DNA from: Prevotella sp.
Lineage (GTDB): Bacteria; Bacteroidota; Bacteroidia; Bacteroidales; Bacteroidaceae
DNA length: 44,184 nt
Reading direction: 5' to 3'
Assembly: GCA_017548605.1 (NCBI GenBank)
Contig: JAFYZT010000035.1
Coordinates: forward strand, 1 to 44,184
Shown piece by piece: positions 9,542 to 20,220 of the stretch. Numbering within the stretch: the first letter of the stretch is position 1; every line of letters starts with the position of its first letter. The translations under genes were made by a program, and so were the position numbers. Below the pieces are notes generated by a model that worked only from the letters and a program-made list of their open reading frames with translations, was not told where the DNA came from and did not search any database.

Positions 9542-10513
9542 ATGACCATCGACCAGAAACTCATCATGGCGGAAGCCAAGGACTGTCTGGGCATCACCCT
9601 GGCGGCGCTGCTCTATACCTTTGGCTTCACCTTCTTCCTCATGCCCTACGAGATTGTGACGGGCGGTGTGGCTGGTGTCTCGGCCATCGTATATTATGCC
9701 ACGTCGTTTCCCAACTCATACACGTATTTTCTGGTCAATGCCGTTCTGTTGATCATCGGACTGAAAATACTAGGTTGGAAATTCCTGTTGAAAACCATCT
9801 TTGCCATCGTCATACTCACCATACTGCTGGAGGTGATGCGTGACGTGGTACCAAGAGATGAACAGGGAAACATGGTGAAGATATTGGGCGAAGGACAGGA
9901 CTTCATGTCGCTGGTCATCGGATGTATCATGACAGGTATCGCCCTGGGACTGTTCTTCCTGAACAACGGCAGCACGGGAGGCACCGACATCATAGCGGCC
10001 TCCATCAACAAATACCATAACGTGTCGTTGGGCACCATCCTCATCTTCGTGGATTTTGTCATCATCGGCAGCTGCTTCTTCATCCCGCAGTTCGGTACTT
10101 ACCTGGAACGGTTGCAGATGATCGTGTTCGGCTTCTGTACCATGCTCATCGAAAATTTCATGCTTGACTATATTATGGACAGGAAACGCCAGTCCGTGCA
10201 ATTCTTGATTTTCTCGGAGAAATGGCAGGAGATAGCCAATGAGATAGGCACGAAGATGGAACATGGTGTGACCATCCTCGACGCACAAGGATGGTACACG
10301 GGAAAGAAGAGTAAGGTGCTCTGTATCCTGGCGAAGAAAAACGAAAGTGTGTCCATCTTCCGACTCATCAAAATCATTGACCCCCATGCCTTCGTCAGCC
10401 AAAGCTCCGTCATCGGCGTCTATGGCGAAGGATTTGACGAGATGAAGGTAAAAGTGCCGAAGAAGAAGAAGAAGAATACCCACCCCAACCCTCCCGAAGG
10501 GAGGGAGCATTAA
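9542..10513 (+). CDS. YitT family membrane protein (DUF161/DUF2179)
   Basis: A 323-residue inner-membrane protein with about five to six hydrophobic helices in residues 18-215, including the family signature FFLMPYEIVTGGVAGVSAIVYY and a second copy-like GLFFLNNGSTGGTDIIAASINKY. A soluble C-terminal DUF2179 domain follows (GVTILDAQGWYTGKKSKVLCILAKKNE ... IDPHAFVSQSSVIGVYGEGFD). The transport or signalling role of YitT proteins is not established to my knowledge. The last residues, NTHPNPPEGREH, are not part of the family: they are translated from a dispersed GGGAGGG repeat that has invaded or overlapped the 3' end, so the ancestral stop was probably just upstream. The gene lies downstream of leuS, beyond a hairpin. 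Confidence 0.9.
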   Translation: MTIDQKLIMAEAKDCLGITLAALLYTFGFTFFLMPYEIVTGGVAGVSAIVYYATSFPNSYTYFLVNAVLLIIGLKILGWKFLLKTIFAIVILTILLEVMRDVVPRDEQGNMVKILGEGQDFMSLVIGCIMTGIALGLFFLNNGSTGGTDIIAASINKYHNVSLGTILIFVDFVIIGSCFFIPQFGTYLERLQMIVFGFCTMLIENFMLDYIMDRKRQSVQFLIFSEKWQEIANEIGTKMEHGVTILDAQGWYTGKKSKVLCILAKKNESVSIFRLIKIIDPHAFVSQSSVIGVYGEGFDEMKVKVPKKKKKNTHPNPPEGREH

Positions 10514-11300: not shown

Positions 11301-11346
11301 TAAAAACTAAGATGATTGCCATAACTCCTATACTCAAGTGGTTTAA

Positions 11347-11376
11347 CCCCTCCTTGGGAAGGGGAAAGGGGGAGGT
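11347..11376. repeat. G-rich hairpin repeat between rdgB and the PorZ-like gene
   Basis: CCCCTCCTTGGGAAGGGG followed by AAAGGGGGAGG, a member of the G-rich hairpin family. It is translated as NPSLGRGKGE in an open but spurious 24-codon extension of the next gene. Its orientation relative to the upstream gene is opposite to that of the other copies. Confidence 0.7.
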
Positions 11377-11383
11377 TCCTATT

Positions 11384-13666
11384 ATGAAACGAACAATCCT
11401 ATTATTACTGACAGTGATGCAGACCCTTTGGCTGTCTGCATCAAGCATCGGCACCTGGAACTGTTTCCCGGCATACGGTGAGATACAGTCTATCCAGCCC
11501 GCCGGAAAATTGGTGTATGTGCTCAGTTCAAAAGGATTGTTCAGCTATAATATAGGTGATGGCAGTGTGCAGACCTATCATAAGATGAACTGTCTCTCCG
11601 ACTGTTTCATCAGTCATATCGCCTATTGCCAGAAAGCCAAACGACTGGTCATCGTCTATGACAACCAGAATATCGACTTGCTGGACAGCAACGATGATGT
11701 CATCAATATCTCCGACTATTACAACAAGTCGTTGTCCAGTGATAAAACCATCAACAGTATTACTACAAGTGGTGAATTTGCCTATCTGAATACTGCTTTC
11801 GGTATCGTCAGGGTGAACGTGGAAAAAGGGGAAATCAACAACACCTATTCCTTGGACAAGAATGTCCATTCAAGTTGTATCTTCAATGGAACGATATATG
11901 CCGCCACCGATGACGGTGTATGGTGTGGCGACATGAAACAGAACCTGCTCGACAAAAACAATTGGAAAAAGAATGTGGATACCGTCTTCAAGGGAATCTA
12001 CAACATTGATGACCATGTGTATGGCGTGACGGACAACAGCATCATGGAATATGCTGGAAACAACTGGACGCAGCGTGAAACGGTAAGTCATCAATTCCTT
12101 TCTCTCTCTGGTAATAAGATTCTGTTGGGTAGTAACAACGTTCTGCGGATTTATGACGGACACATGACTACTCTACAGATGCAGGAAGACACCCATACGG
12201 CTTATGCCTATGATACTGCCAATAATTGTTTCTGGAGCAACCAGGGTAACGGCAAACTGTATGGTTTCCGTCAGAGTGAGGATGGACTGCAAAACATCAT
12301 TACAGATATCGTGCCCGACGGACCTGTTTCCAACTCATTTGCATACCTCCGTTTCGTCAATAATACGTTATATTCCTGTTCCGGCGGCTTCAGCAGTGAA
12401 TCGGACCAACTGATGCCGGGTATATTGCAATCCATGACAAATAATGACTGGACAATTTATGAAAAAGTTGACTTGTCCAGTGTCGGCTCTTACTATATAG
12501 ATGTGATGTGTCTGGATGTGGATCCGAAAAATAAAGAACATGTCTTTGCCGGAGGACGAACGGGAGTTTTCGAATTTCTCAATGGCAAATTTGTGAATTA
12601 TTACAGCAACCATAATAGTCCGTTACGGTCGGCTCTCGATCCCGAAAATATCAAATATGTGTTGGTGTTTGGTATGCACTTCGATGCTTCGGGTAATCTA
12701 TGGATGTTGAACAGTCAGGCTAAGGGTACCAACGTACTGTGTCTGGACAATTCGGGAAAATGGAACTCCATACCGAAAGATGAGTTCTGGGACAAGGACA
12801 ATAATGGCAGGAGCCTGGCTTTCATGCAACATGCTTTCATCGACAGCCGTGGATTGTTGTGGTTTGCCAATAACCATTACCTGTCCACCTCATTCGGTAG
12901 CTACGACATCAAAAATGATGTTGCCCAGCGTTATGCCTCCTTCATCAACCAAGATGGTACTTCCTATCGTATCGATTATGTACGCACAGTGACGGAAGAT
13001 AAGGATAAGAATATTTGGGTGGGTACCAATACAGGACCGTTCATTCTGACGGCAGACAATATCCGCCAAGGTATAACTGATGAGTTATATCAGGTGAAAG
13101 TACCACGTAACGATGGCACCAATTTTGCTGATTATCTGCTCAGTGGTGTTGATGTCACTACCATCGCCATTGATGGTGGTAACCGTAAATGGATAGGTAC
13201 GAACGGACAGGGTGTCTATCTCATCAGTGCCGACAATATCACACAGATACACCATTTCTTGGCCAACGATAGTAAACTGCTTTCCAACAATATCCAACAT
13301 ATTGTCATCAATGATAATACGGGCGAGGTTTTCATTGCTACCGATAAGGGTCTATGCTCATATATGAGTGATGCCACGGCTACCAATGACGAGATGACTG
13401 ATGACAATGTGTATGCCTATCCCAACCCTGTGGAACCGGATTATAAAGGATTGATTACGGTGGTCGGTCTCAGTTACAATGCCGATGTGAAGATTACCAC
13501 TTCCAATGGTGTGTTGGTGACTGAAGGACGAAGCAACGGTGGTACCTTCACATGGGATGGCTGTGATAAAAAAGGCCATCGCGTGGCATCAGGTGTCTAT
13601 ATGGTACACACGGCTACCAGCGATGGCAATTCGGGAACGGTCTGTAAGATAGCTATCGTCAATTGA
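11384..13666 (+). CDS. porZ: PorZ-like beta-propeller protein (type IX secretion family)
   Basis: A 760-residue exported protein: signal peptide MKRTILLLLTVMQTLWLSA, then repeated beta-propeller blades (GKLVYVLSSKGLFSYNIGDGSVQTY, FAYLNTAFGIVRVNVEKGEI, NIWVGTNTGPFILTADN, NRKWIGTNGQGVYLISADN). It ends in a beta-sandwich with VYAYPNPVEPDYKGLITVVGL and GVYMVHTATSDGNSGTVCKIAIVN. Length and layout agree with PorZ of Porphyromonas gingivalis, a surface component linked to anchoring of type IX cargo to A-LPS. The ATG at 11384 gives the signal peptide; the upstream extension is repeat-derived. The 3' end overlaps the convergent CapA-like gene by 8 bp. No other type IX component is in the window. An alternative label is a two-component-regulator-type propeller protein. 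Confidence 0.72.
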   Translation: MKRTILLLLTVMQTLWLSASSIGTWNCFPAYGEIQSIQPAGKLVYVLSSKGLFSYNIGDGSVQTYHKMNCLSDCFISHIAYCQKAKRLVIVYDNQNIDLLDSNDDVINISDYYNKSLSSDKTINSITTSGEFAYLNTAFGIVRVNVEKGEINNTYSLDKNVHSSCIFNGTIYAATDDGVWCGDMKQNLLDKNNWKKNVDTVFKGIYNIDDHVYGVTDNSIMEYAGNNWTQRETVSHQFLSLSGNKILLGSNNVLRIYDGHMTTLQMQEDTHTAYAYDTANNCFWSNQGNGKLYGFRQSEDGLQNIITDIVPDGPVSNSFAYLRFVNNTLYSCSGGFSSESDQLMPGILQSMTNNDWTIYEKVDLSSVGSYYIDVMCLDVDPKNKEHVFAGGRTGVFEFLNGKFVNYYSNHNSPLRSALDPENIKYVLVFGMHFDASGNLWMLNSQAKGTNVLCLDNSGKWNSIPKDEFWDKDNNGRSLAFMQHAFIDSRGLLWFANNHYLSTSFGSYDIKNDVAQRYASFINQDGTSYRIDYVRTVTEDKDKNIWVGTNTGPFILTADNIRQGITDELYQVKVPRNDGTNFADYLLSGVDVTTIAIDGGNRKWIGTNGQGVYLISADNITQIHHFLANDSKLLSNNIQHIVINDNTGEVFIATDKGLCSYMSDATATNDEMTDDNVYAYPNPVEPDYKGLITVVGLSYNADVKITTSNGVLVTEGRSNGGTFTWDGCDKKGHRVASGVYMVHTATSDGNSGTVCKIAIVN

Positions 13667-14962: not shown

Positions 14963-15955
14963 TTAACTCAGTTCCAACATCTTATTAATCGGTTTCACTG
15001 CCTCACGTGCGATATCTTCATCCACATCCACTTCTGGCCATTCATATTTCAGGGCATTGTAGATTTTCAACAAGGTATTCATCTTCATATAGTCACATTC
15101 ATTGCAGCTGCAGCCAACGCTCCCTTCCGACACCTCTGGTGGAACAGGATAAAAAGTCTTTCCTTCACACTTACGCTGCATCTCATGCAGAATACCTGCC
15201 TCAGTGGCCACGATAAACTCTTTTTTATCGCTCTCAATAGCATATTTCAAAATGACAGCCGTACTGCCCACCACATCGGCAATGGCCAACACAGGTCCCT
15301 TACACTCAGGATGTGCCAATATCACTGCTTCGGGATGTGCCTTTTTCAATGCCACTATACCATCAACAGAGAAACGTTCATGGACATGACAGCCACCATT
15401 CCACAACAACATATCACGACCAGTGATACTATTGATATAACTACCCAGGTTATAGTCAGGACCGAAAATCAGTTTGGCATTCTGTGGAAAAGTGTCAACA
15501 ATCTTCTTCGCATTGCCTGAAGTGACAACAATGTCGGTGAGAGCCTTCACAGCTGCCGTGGTATTCACATAACTCACCACCTGATAGCCTGGATGCTCCT
15601 CTTTATATTTCTTCAGGTCTTCGGCCTTACAGGAGTCGGCCAATGAACAGCCGGCATTGAGGTCAGGCACCAACACTTTCTTGTCGGGACAAAGTATCTT
15701 GTCGGTCTCAGCCATGAAATGTACGCCACACATCATGATTATATCTGCATCGGTCTTAGCAGCCTTCTGTGCCAATGCCAGTGAGTCGCCAATGAAATCA
15801 GCAATATCCTGTATCTCTCCTTGTGTATAGTAGTGTGCCAGAATGACGGCATTCTTTTCTTTGCACATCCTACGGATTTCCTTCTTCAGATCCAAGGACT
15901 CGTCCACTGGTTCATTGATGAACCCTTGTTCAATCCACTTTTTTTTCAACTTCAT
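14963..15955 (-). CDS. nadA: Quinolinate synthase
   Basis: A 330-residue [4Fe-4S] enzyme of de novo NAD synthesis, which condenses iminoaspartate with dihydroxyacetone phosphate to quinolinate. Diagnostic stretches are NAVILAHYYTQGEIQDIADFIGDSLALAQKA, MCGVHFMAETDKILCPDK, PDLNAGCSLADSC (first cluster cysteine), LLWNGGCHVHERF, and the C-terminal GCSCNECDYMKMNTL, which carries the last cluster cysteine. The length fits the family. nadB and nadC are not adjacent. The start codon faces the AT-rich DnaA-box region; a minus-strand -7-like TATATTTGC at 16158-16166 could drive it but has no clear -33. The gene is divergent from ald. Confidence 0.96.
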   Translation of the reverse strand: MKLKKKWIEQGFINEPVDESLDLKKEIRRMCKEKNAVILAHYYTQGEIQDIADFIGDSLALAQKAAKTDADIIMMCGVHFMAETDKILCPDKKVLVPDLNAGCSLADSCKAEDLKKYKEEHPGYQVVSYVNTTAAVKALTDIVVTSGNAKKIVDTFPQNAKLIFGPDYNLGSYINSITGRDMLLWNGGCHVHERFSVDGIVALKKAHPEAVILAHPECKGPVLAIADVVGSTAVILKYAIESDKKEFIVATEAGILHEMQRKCEGKTFYPVPPEVSEGSVGCSCNECDYMKMNTLLKIYNALKYEWPEVDVDEDIAREAVKPINKMLELS

Positions 15956-16482
15956 ATTTTTATTATTTTTGTTTTTCTTTTTTAGAAAGAATTTTTGTGA
16001 TGTTAATAATAGACTGTGGAAAATGTGTATAACTTTGGGTATAAAAATAATCCACTTTGAATGAACTGTCTAACATGGTTTATTCACATGTTTTGTGGAT
16101 ATTTTATGATTGATTATCAGTCATTAGGGTTATTTTTCCACAATTTTCTATTTTGGTGCAAATATAATAAGTTTATATCTTTTTTCATGAAAAACTATGG
16201 AAAACTTTCTTAAAAAGATATTTGAGAGTGGGGTTTTTCCACCATGTTCAGCCTCTCCCATTTTTCCTCTTTTTTATCCACAGTTTACACCCTAAGTTTT
16301 CCACAATGTTATCCACAATAGTGTTGAATAGTTAAGAGGAAGTTAAAAGGGTCTTGATACTGCTTGATTCATGGATATTCAAGAGGGAGGAAAAAAGGGG
16401 ACAAATGAAAAAATATTTTTAAAAAATAGGTATTTCACATAATTATTATTACTTTTGTGAGGTTAACTAAAAACTCAATATT
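15956..16482. other. AT-rich DnaA-box cluster, candidate oriC
   Basis: A 527 bp gene-free region. Nonamers like the DnaA box TTATCCACA lie at 16274-16282 and 16309-16317 (both exact). Near matches are at 16015-16023 (reverse TTTTCCACA), 16024-16032 (reverse TTATACACA), 16048-16056 (TAATCCACT), 16080-16088 (TTATTCACA), 16094-16102 (reverse ATATCCACA), 16134-16142 and 16297-16305 (TTTTCCACA), and 16235-16243 (TTTTCCACC). A strongly AT-rich stretch at about 16143-16225 lies between box groups and could be the unwinding element. No coding frame is supported. dnaA is not in the window, so the assignment rests on box density alone. Confidence 0.65.
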
Positions 16483-17589
16483 ATGATAGTAGGAATTCCA
16501 AAAGAAATTAAGGACAATGAGAACCGAGTAGGTATGACACCGTCGGGAGTAGCCGAACTGACGAAGCGCGGTCATACAGTGTTTGTACAACATACCGCTG
16601 GTGAAGGAAGCGGTTTTGCTGATGTCGAGTATGAAAAGGTAGGTGCAAAGATTTTACCTACCATTGAAGATGTCTATGCCCAGGCAGAGATGATAGTAAA
16701 GGTGAAAGAGCCTATCAAACCGGAATATCCTCTTATCCGTAAGGGACAAGTTCTTTTCACTTATTTCCATTTTGCTTGTGAGAAAGAACTTACTGAAGCC
16801 ATGTTGAAGAGCGGTGCCACATGTATTGCCTATGAAACAGTGGAAATGCCCGATCGTTCATTGCCATTGCTCATTCCGATGAGTGAGGTAGCAGGACGTA
16901 TGGCCACACAGAATGGTGCCTATTATCTGCAGAAGACACAAGGAGGTAAGGGTAAGCTGATGGCTGGTGTACCTGGTGTAAAACCTGCCAAGGTATTGGT
17001 GCTCGGTGCTGGTACTGTTGGTGAAGCAGCAGCCCGCATTGCGGTAGGTATGGGTGCCGACGTGACTATTACTGACATATCATTGCCTCGACTGAAGAGA
17101 TTGGCTGCTGACATGCCGAATGTACACACTCTCTACTCTTCGGAACATAATATCCGTCAGGAATTGCCTACGGTAGATATAGTAGTAGGTTCAGTACTTA
17201 TCCCCGGCGATGCTGCACCTAAACTCATCACACGCGACATGTTGAAACTGATGGAACCGGGAACAGTTCTTGTCGATGTGGCTATCGACCAAGGTGGCTG
17301 TTTCGAGACATCTCATCCCACCAAACACAGTGACCCTGTATATACCGTTGATGGTATCATTCATTATGCTGTGGCCAATATCCCCGGTGCAGTACCCAAC
17401 ACTTCGACAATGGCTCTTACCAACGCTACCTTGCGTTATGTCATTGCCTTGGCACAAAAAGGTTGGAAGAAAGCTTGTCGTGAAGACGAGTCATTGTATA
17501 AAGGAGTAAACATCACCGACGGAAAGGTTACTTTCGAGGCCGTGGCCAAAGTGTTTGACCTTCCTTATACTCCATTGAAACTCGATTAA
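16483..17589 (+). CDS. ald: Alanine dehydrogenase
   Basis: A 368-residue NAD-dependent alanine dehydrogenase, interconverting L-alanine with pyruvate and ammonia. The N-terminus MIVGIPKEIKDNENRVGMTPSGVAELTKRGHTVFVQ contains the substrate-binding Arg and Lys residues. The Rossmann nucleotide site is VLVLGAGTVGEAAARIAVGMGADVTITD, and the region DVAIDQGGCFETSHPTKHSDPVY is typical of AlaDH. The size matches the family. The box TACTTTTG (16450-16457) is a possible -7 element without a clear -33, placing the start close to the candidate origin. mutS begins 6 bp after the stop and is probably co-transcribed. Confidence 0.95.
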   Translation: MIVGIPKEIKDNENRVGMTPSGVAELTKRGHTVFVQHTAGEGSGFADVEYEKVGAKILPTIEDVYAQAEMIVKVKEPIKPEYPLIRKGQVLFTYFHFACEKELTEAMLKSGATCIAYETVEMPDRSLPLLIPMSEVAGRMATQNGAYYLQKTQGGKGKLMAGVPGVKPAKVLVLGAGTVGEAAARIAVGMGADVTITDISLPRLKRLAADMPNVHTLYSSEHNIRQELPTVDIVVGSVLIPGDAAPKLITRDMLKLMEPGTVLVDVAIDQGGCFETSHPTKHSDPVYTVDGIIHYAVANIPGAVPNTSTMALTNATLRYVIALAQKGWKKACREDESLYKGVNITDGKVTFEAVAKVFDLPYTPLKLD

Positions 17590-17595
17590 AACATA

Positions 17596-20220
17596 ATGGC
17601 TGCGAAAGACAAAGGATTAACCCCCATGATGAAACAGTTCTTCACGCTGAAGGCGAAACATCCTGATGCGTTGATGCTGTTTCGTTGTGGTGACTTCTAT
17701 GAGACATATTGTCAGGATGCCATCGATGCGGCAAAGATATTAGGTATCACGCTGACTAAACGGAATAATGGCGGCATATCTGGCAGTGCCGAGATGGCAG
17801 GCTTTCCCCATCATGCTCTCGACACCTATCTGCCGAAGCTGATACGTGCGGGTCGGCGTGTAGCTATCTGTGACCAGTTGGAAGACCCGAAGATGACCAA
17901 GACTTTGGTGAAAAGGGGTATCACCGAACTGGTAACTCCCGGTGTGGCCATCAACGATAATGTGCTCAACTATAAGGAGAACAATTTCCTCGCAGCCATT
18001 CATTTTGGAAAGGGTGCCTGTGGCGTTTCTTTCCTGGATATCAGCACGGGTGAGTTCCTAACAAGTCAGGGAACTTACGACTATGTGGAAAAACTGTTGA
18101 GTAATTTCCAACCTAAGGAAGTGCTGTATGATAGGAACAAGAGGAATGAGTTTCAACAGTATTTCGGTACCAAACATTGTATCTTTGAGTTGGACGACTG
18201 GGTGTTCACCGAAGAGACGGCACGTCAGAAACTGTTGAAACATTTCCGTGTCAGGTCATTGAAAGGCTTCGGCATAGAACACCTGCGTGAAGGAGTCATC
18301 GCCTCGGGAGCCATCCTGCAATACCTTGAGCTGACGCAACATACACAAATCAATCATATCACCACCCTCTCGCGTATTGAAGAAGATAAATATGTGAGGT
18401 TGGATAAGTTCACCATCCGTTCCTTGGAGTTGTTATCACCCATGCAGGACGACGGTGCGTCGCTTCTGGATGTGGTTGACAAGACAGTGACACCGATAGG
18501 TGGCCGTATGTTGAAACGGTGGATGGTCTTTCCCTTGAAAGATCTGAAAATGATCAAGGAACGCCACGATGTGGTGGAGTATTTCTTCCGTGAGCCCGAC
18601 TTACGTCAGTGTATCGCCGAACAGTTGGAACATATCTCCGACTTGGAACGTATCATCTCTCGTGTGGCGGCATCACGTGTGTCGCCCCGTGAGGTGGTGC
18701 AACTGAAAGTGGCCTTGCAGGCTTTGGTATCTATCAAGGCGGCTTGTGAGAATGCCGACAATGAGGTGCTGCGCCTGTTGGGTAATCAATTCAACCTTTG
18801 TGAGGTGTTGCGCGACCGTATCGCCAAGGAGGTGTTCGAGGATTGTCCCCTGTTGGTCAACAAGGGACATGTCATCAAGGAGGGTGTGGACAGTACGCTC
18901 GATGAACTGCGCCATATCGCCTACAGCGGCAAGGATTATCTGATGAGGATACAGGAACGTGAGACGGAACAGACGGGTATCAGCAGTCTGAAGATTGGCT
19001 ATAACAATGTTTTCGGCTATTACCTGGAGGTGCGTAACACCTACAAAGATAAGGTGCCTGCCGACTGGGTGCGCAAGCAGACCTTGGCTCAGGCAGAGCG
19101 CTATATCACACAGGAACTGAAGGAATATGAGGAGAAGATTCTCGGTGCCGAGGAGAAAATCCTTGCCTTGGAGACGCGGCTGTTCAATGACCTGGTGATG
19201 GCGATGCAGGAGTTCATCCCTGCCATCCAAATCAATGCTAACCTGCTGGCACATCTTGACTGTCTCCTTTCTTTCACACGGGTGGCCGAGGAGAATCATT
19301 ATATTCGTCCCGAGATGGATAATTCGGAGATTATCGACATCAAACAAGGTCGCCATCCCGTCATCGAGACACAGCTGCCGCTGGGTGAACGGTATGTACC
19401 CAATGATATCTATCTTGACAACGAGAAACAGCAGATTATCATCATCACAGGTCCCAATATGGCGGGTAAGTCGGCGCTGTTGCGTCAGACGGCCTTGATA
19501 GTGTTACTCTCACAGATAGGCTCTTTCGTGCCAGCAGAACGGGCACGGATAGGTATTGTGGATAAGATTTTCACCCGTGTGGGTGCTTCCGACAACCTCT
19601 CACAGGGAGAGAGTACCTTCATGGTGGAGATGACCGAGGCTTCGAACATCTTGAACAATGTCTCTACCCGTTCCTTGGTGCTGTTCGATGAGTTAGGTCG
19701 TGGCACATCCACCTATGATGGCATATCCATCGCCTGGGCCATCGTGGAATACCTGCATGAACAGCCACGTGCCCATGCCCGTACCTTATTTGCCACACAC
19801 TATCATGAGTTGAACGAGATGGAGAAACATTTCTCTCGTATCAAGAACTACAACGTAAGTGTGAAGGAGGTGGACAATAAGGTGATATTCCTCCGTAAGC
19901 TGGAACGTGGCGGTTCGGAACATTCCTTCGGTATCCATGTGGCGGAAATAGCGGGCATGCCCAAGAGTATCATCAAACGGGCTAATGTCATCCTGAAGCA
20001 GTTGGAGAGCGAGAATGCGCAGGTCGGCAGTGCCGGTAAACCGAAAACCGAGGTATTGGGACAAGGTCGTGAAGGTATGCAGTTAAGCTTCTTCCAGTTA
20101 GATGACCCCGTACTCAGTCAGATACGTGACGAAATCCTGGGTCTCGACATCAACAACCTCACCCCCATGGAAGCCCTCAACAAACTCCACGGCATCAAAC
20201 GAATTTTGACTGGGAAATAA
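17596..20220 (+). CDS. mutS: DNA mismatch repair protein MutS
   Basis: An 874-residue mismatch-recognition ATPase. The N-terminal mismatch-binding domain contains the family FYETY motif in [17 protein letters not shown], with the conserved Phe-X-Glu that intercalates at the mismatch. A connector, a long helical clamp region and an ABC-type ATPase follow: Walker [18 protein letters not shown], a signature region [15 protein letters not shown], Walker [18 protein letters not shown], and the H-loop ATHYHEL. The C-terminal [13 protein letters not shown]...[12 protein letters not shown] tail is usual. The start lies 6 bp after ald. It acts with MutL, which is not in the window. Confidence 0.98.

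Follow-up and report, generated by a model that had tools for sequence, protein, structure and literature searches.

The window – the whole stretch of 44,184 nucleotides analysed here – raises the question of where the chromosome of its host begins to replicate. It contains a 527-bp gap (15956–16482; 27.5% GC) that a preliminary description took for a candidate chromosomal origin (oriC), gene-free and flanked by divergent genes. The layout is as described: no long frames lie between nadA (quinolinate synthetase; 14963–15955, minus strand) and ald (alanine dehydrogenase; 16483–17589, plus strand), the latter followed by mutS (17596–20220). Does replication start here, in a host assembly – a 55-contig draft – in which dnaA lies on one contig (C23) and the gap on another (C31)?

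Our computations lead us to answer that 16004–16317 is very probably the oriC of this Prevotella-group bacterium. The reading follows from a non-random cluster of DnaA boxes, set in near-fixed register around a core element, kept in relatives, and located where their strand composition and rRNA gene direction switch. The origin first proposed for the gap is thus supported by a conserved cluster, by the skew break of relatives, by the divergence of their 16S genes and, in two relatives, by a skew that follows the element itself.

DnaA boxes and a conserved core

Eight nonamers with at most one mismatch to TTATCCACA begin within 16015–16317, at 16015 (–), 16024 (–), 16080 (+), 16094 (–), 16134 (+), 16274 (+), 16297 (+) and 16309 (+); two of them, at 16274 and 16309, match exactly, as had been reported. 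Four more with two mismatches (16036, 16048, 16196 and 16235) bring the total to 12; the cluster first described stands, its count of ten falling between these two totals. None of 2000 dinucleotide shuffles of 15956–16482 gave eight boxes (mean 0.27, maximum 3), and none of 400 permuted box words gave eight matches (maximum 4). At this threshold the remainder of the window has at most two boxes in any 303 bp, which bears out the claim of a density far above the surroundings. Across the host genome the exact box occurs at 36 sites, against 46 for the same word read backwards, and is therefore not enriched: it is clustering, not abundance, that sets the site apart.

The boxes fall into two groups. 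Distal to nadA is an array on the plus strand (16274–16317) made up of TTATCCACA at 16274–16282, TTTTCCACA at 16297–16305 and TTATCCACA at 16309–16317, at offsets of –100, –123 and –135 from the core. On the nadA side are TTTTCCACA at 16134–16142 (plus strand; offset +40, the most constant box), ATATCCACA at 16094–16102 (minus; +80), TTATTCACA at 16080–16088 (plus; +94) and an abutting pair on the minus strand (16015–16032), namely TTATACACA at 16024–16032 and TTTTCCACA at 16015–16023. The interval between the groups (16143–16273), earlier described as AT-rich and free of boxes, has no box with up to one mismatch and is AT-rich at the core that it holds, but is richer in GC at about 16221–16260.

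An alignment of 18 upstream regions revealed, between the two box groups, an almost constant block with the consensus AAAGATATAAACTTATTANNTTTGCA. Its copy in the window, AAAGATATAAACTTATTATATTTGCA (16157–16182, minus strand; 26 bases), matches that consensus perfectly. Whether the boxes are conserved in related Prevotella, a point raised in the preliminary description, was examined through a NadA scan of named genomes, which found 505 relatives and from which 80 loci were kept, 75 with 600 bp upstream of nadA. They are conserved: at least four boxes are present upstream of nadA in 67 of the 75 (fewer than four in the other eight) and at least one exact box in 64, the density there being 9.13 per kb versus 0.38 in the remainder of the same loci. 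The core is perfect in 46 of these 75 loci, has at most two mismatches in 60 and at most three in 65, leaving 10 with no match at that level; the reversed core word never came below six mismatches. In the 65 loci with a core it lies upstream of nadA, at a distance of 216–326 bp (median 229).

The association holds when the core, rather than nadA, is the point of entry. In a set of 120 genomes of the same genus, drawn from a larger group and often incomplete, the core occurs with at most two mismatches in 64, as a single copy in all but one (G043, with three), and the reversed control in none. When only good genomes of the genus are counted the figures are 38 of 57, with none in 19, and some genomes that lack the core carry diverged cores with boxes. 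Each of the 31 loci of the own genus that were retrieved with the core (L192–L222) has three to nine boxes within 450 bp. The register is nearly fixed: 97 of 111 loci had a core with up to three mismatches together with its flanks, and in the 87 distinct loci lined up on it a box stands exactly at +40 in 73 and at +94 in 35, while same-strand boxes recur at about –148, –136, –124 and –112, a step of 12 bp. The core is the best conserved part of the site; its columns reach 1.7–1.9 bits in these 87 loci, values inflated by the choice of loci for their core, the unpicked figure being the 60 of 75 given above.

Upstream of nadA (700 bp) at 30 loci of other genera we found at most one box in 23, two or three in five, and five or six in two; the TTATCCACA cluster is therefore not family-wide. 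A core profile matched at E < 0.001 in eight of these 30 loci. Searched across the family at E ≤ 1, the profile matched in 149 of 151 genomes, which makes the count uninformative; within the own genus 12 of 15 genomes scored at E ≤ 5e-12, and of 16 matches fetched from other genera six adjoin nadA, four on the expected strand and two on the opposite one (L279 and L294). Core matches at the level of the order came from six of 295 genomes, two of the own genus; the other four (L223–L226, other families) were set aside as unrelated, with no box in 3 kb. Two contigs titled Bacillota and Ruminococcaceae (L071 and L074) carry a Prevotella-like nadA together with a box cluster and are probably misbinned.

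The core also contains, at 16159–16166 on the minus strand, TAnnTTTG, quoted as the –7 promoter motif of Bacteroides in an excerpt of PMC7366714. The motif has 35 matches on the two strands of the window, so that its presence may be due to chance. Taken at face value it suggests that transcription running through the nadA-side boxes may begin in the core as well; the 24 conserved positions of the core are more than a promoter by itself explains.

The neighbours of the site

The preliminary description placed the origin between nadA and ald. As regards nadA, a long-standing neighbour, this holds; as regards ald it describes a local and incidental arrangement, since, apart from the window, just one of the 80 named relative loci (L032) has ald on the far side of the site, nine of the 80 extending less than 2 kb upstream. 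Two close relatives, L033 and L034, have mutS directly facing the site in the place of ald. The site thus goes together with nadA, and an insertion probably brought ald between the site and mutS. The segment 16483–20220, in which ald separates the origin from mutS as it does in L032, accordingly has the look of a recent insertion of ald at an origin. A PorZ-like type IX secretion protein (Pfam) is encoded near the origin at 11312–13666, and many loci have a relative of this protein close to nadA.

In a few relatives the core and nadA are apart. In G010, G074 and G083 the core, with six to nine boxes, lies far from nadA and adjoins the gene for a protein of about 270 amino acids, which we take to be duf3108 (the likeness of the G074 and G083 copies was judged by eye). 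A 71–72% relative of this gene adjoins the core in G451, G477 and G540, where nadA is on another contig. Across the site in G010 and – by eye – in G074 is a glycosyltransferase-like gene, presumably gt9, and in L061 and L271 a relative of this gene is found opposite nadA, on the far side of the site. The simplest explanation is that nadA moved and the origin stayed.

Strand composition and rRNA gene direction

Plain GC skew makes no clean switch in the window, and the minimum of plain third-position G–C at 15955 was rejected as a decisive sign: it is confounded by gene strand, genes to the left being mostly on the plus strand and those to the right mostly on the minus strand. We therefore used a two-factor model in which third-position GC skew per gene is the sum of a strand effect and a replichore effect, with origin and terminus scanned. 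Of 26 breakpoints tried within the window, 16219 fits best; at that fixed site 102 of 5000 permutations were as good, a figure uncorrected for the choice among breakpoints.

Relatives give a fuller picture, based on scattered pieces of about 10–20 kb from five genomes. In G023 the best origin (1,510,000) practically coincides with the core (1,509,756) and gives a gain of 0.50, against 0.07 for dnaA as origin; in a 10-kb profile the sign switches between 1.50 and 1.52 Mb. In G116 the best origin is at the ends of the record, where nadA lies (gain 0.36; dnaA 0.25), and in G060 the core itself (0.183) compares with 0.176 for the best grid point, at 1.81 Mb. In two of the genomes core and nadA are separated, by about 0.9 Mb in G010 and by about 0.8 Mb (the short way round the circle) in G074. 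In both the best origin is beside the core, with gains of 0.101 (G010, contig C3) and 0.095 (G074, contig C4), whereas nadA yields 0.014 and 0.050, in both cases with a terminus-like sign; dnaA, too, fits as terminus in G074. These gains are small for G010, G074 and G060. In the two genomes with a distant nadA the break in skew follows the core and not nadA. A skew minimum far from the site, the outcome that the preliminary description had singled out as damaging, is thus not what these relatives have: in all five the break falls at the core or nadA-side cluster.

The direction of rRNA genes points the same way. We placed the origin at the core (at nadA where the core was unplaced) and the terminus opposite to it. 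Of the 53 16S genes or fragments in 14 relatives, 52 then run away from the origin, against 26.5 expected for random sites; the sole exception is a short fragment in G399. The count is for one piece per gene on contigs bearing a core, excludes G016 (no nadA, and no core with up to two mismatches), and uses rounded genome lengths for G507 and G551. Single genomes are weak in this test, 10–50% of random sites doing as well. Six of the 14 relatives come from outside the genus but within the family (four from g2, one each from g182 and g187), and for two of the set, G418 and G472, we recognised nothing core-like upstream of nadA. An origin on the nadA side may accordingly be older than the genus, though recognisable boxes are few in other genera.

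As for dnaA, an origin in its vicinity was considered and rejected, there being one box only in the 4362 bp around the host gene. Nor does the site belong to the class of origins that adjoin dnaA: in the host the two are on different contigs, and in six relatives 0.6–1.2 Mb separates dnaA from the core. That the absence of dnaA would not be fatal had been anticipated; in this group dnaA cannot serve as an origin finder. Two exact boxes within 100 bp occur in the host genome at this site and at one other (C55:44758/44789), which was also rejected as an origin, the surrounding 20 kb having at most two boxes per 400 bp. That pair (9759–9798 of locus L165), with its boxes 31 bp apart between divergent long frames and no further boxes, is possibly a DnaA-regulated promoter.

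Could the boxes of the nadA gap be something of this kind, a DnaA-responsive promoter region for nadA and/or ald rather than an origin? The TAnnTTTG motif does point to nadA, the core keeps to its narrow range of distances upstream of that gene, and a co-oriented gene follows the core in the loci looked at. Yet core and boxes are found far from nadA in three relatives, in two of which the skew break goes with the core, ald is the neighbour in a single relative locus, and a promoter leaves skew and rRNA direction unexplained; we consider it very unlikely. A locus for DnaA titration or reactivation (datA- or DARS-like), with the origin elsewhere, would sit comfortably with a box cluster away from dnaA, but not with the coincidence of skew break and 16S directions at the site, and the only other close pair of exact boxes, on C55, is no cluster; its probability is slighter still. 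That boxes merely accumulated by chance, for which the low GC content of the gap might be invoked, is contradicted by the shuffles and by conservation in relatives, and the likelihood that we attach to it is negligible.

Opening of the DNA and comparison with known origins

Given an origin at 16004–16317, a central issue is where the strands would part. Three AT-rich candidates lie beside the boxes: the nadA-side edge (15956–16003), a candidate unwinding element that is also the nadA leader; the core; and a tract on the ald side (16407–16456), which contains the least stable 40-mers of 15801–16600 and is outside the conserved part. Our first reading favoured the core. Over –160 to +186 the least stable 30-mer starts at the core (–20 to –1) in 53 of 87 loci, within 16015–16317 of the window it starts at 16159–16163, and no part of the site is better conserved. 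We lowered this reading because a wider flank shows the edge to be less stable: with sequence to +260 included, the nadA-side edge is least stable in 77 of the 87 loci and the core in five. The abutting box pair and a trio-like tract, moreover, adjoin the edge. Opening at the nadA-side edge therefore strikes us as an even prospect, weakened by the position of the least stable 40-mers of the window on the ald side, away from the proposed site; opening at the core (16157–16190), the origin being otherwise as stated, is possible but rather doubtful.

The trio-like tract (16004–16012) is 2 bp from the box pair and reads TAATAATAG on the plus strand, or 3'-GAT AAT AAT-5'; for the strand of the trio relative to the box we rely on what we take to be the usual arrangement. 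An edge box with up to two mismatches is present in 81 of the 87 loci, and at successive third positions after it T stands in 67, 67, 57, 51 and 56 of the 81. Runs of at least four trios occur in 40 of the 81, against 16% in shuffles, but the opposite orientation is enriched as well (runs of at least three in 33 of 81, against 15%), and the trio reading is a weak one.

On this basis we envisage the following series of events. DnaA would bind the distal array (16274–16317) and the nadA-side boxes (16015–16142) and then oligomerise; from the abutting pair (16015–16032) it could engage the trio-like tract (16004–16012). The AT-rich edge (15956–16003) would melt and the helicase would be loaded there, two forks then leaving the site. 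The core might serve as a second melting site, or as a binding site for DnaA or another factor, and as its –7 motif points through the nadA-side boxes, transcription may help opening.

Several of these features have counterparts elsewhere. Origins of the Escherichia coli type comprise several DnaA boxes and an AT-rich unwinding region; the present site has several boxes and AT-rich candidates for such a region, and differs in its neighbours and in the layout of its boxes. The Bacillus subtilis-type BUS, as set out in an excerpt of PMC8287927, offers a further parallel: an abutting box pair, then three middle-A trinucleotides on one strand within 16 bp, beside AT-rich DNA. By that rule, which is loose, and on the strand assumed above, a box in the window has three or more 3'-NAN-5' trinucleotides no further than 16 bp away. 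Unlike the BUS there described, our site is not beside dnaA, has an extra core between the box groups, and gives a partial trio signal in relatives.

The one predicted Prevotella origin found in the open-licence literature is that of P. intermedia OMA14, placed by Ori-Finder on the first chromosome with dnaA elsewhere (PMC4755523, in excerpt), its authors remarking that oriC is commonly far from dnaA in Bacteroidetes. The two are alike in that multiple DnaA boxes coincide with a GC-skew transition and dnaA is not nearby; in contrast to what we describe, the excerpted account mentions no conserved core, fixed spacing or nadA. For Porphyromonas gingivalis and other strains oriC is placed at dnaA by convention (PMC5771137, in excerpt), and excerpts of PMC7111523 and PMC13342612 bear on oriC finding in general.

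We propose tentatively, and with somewhat less than even confidence, that the core is a new kind of Bacteroidota origin element, a sequence-specific site that is recognised by DnaA or by some unknown factor and/or serves as a promoter at the origin. It would mark oriC across most of the genus Prevotella in near-fixed register with the boxes, stay when the neighbouring gene changes, and survive in diverged (TTnTTAACTTTGCA-like) form ahead of nadA in the family's other genera. The word GATATAAACTTATTA is absent from the open-licence literature searched; subscription papers and DoriC fall outside that scope, and the origin predicted here may be listed there. The question that this raises is what reads the core.

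In practical terms the core offers an easy marker for finding oriC, even where a metagenome assembly is fragmented, and the position of oriC is needed for estimates of growth from read coverage. Counting cores could also flag mixed genome bins. A case in point is G043, in which three nadA genes, each with its own core, occur on contigs C13, C26 and C30 of one bin (contamination given as 2%): so many origins in a single bin point to mixed strains or species. The circular record of G116 (C1) begins inside the core and was for that reason missed by pattern searches; joining its ends restores a perfect match, and the record was perhaps rotated so as to start at a predicted origin.
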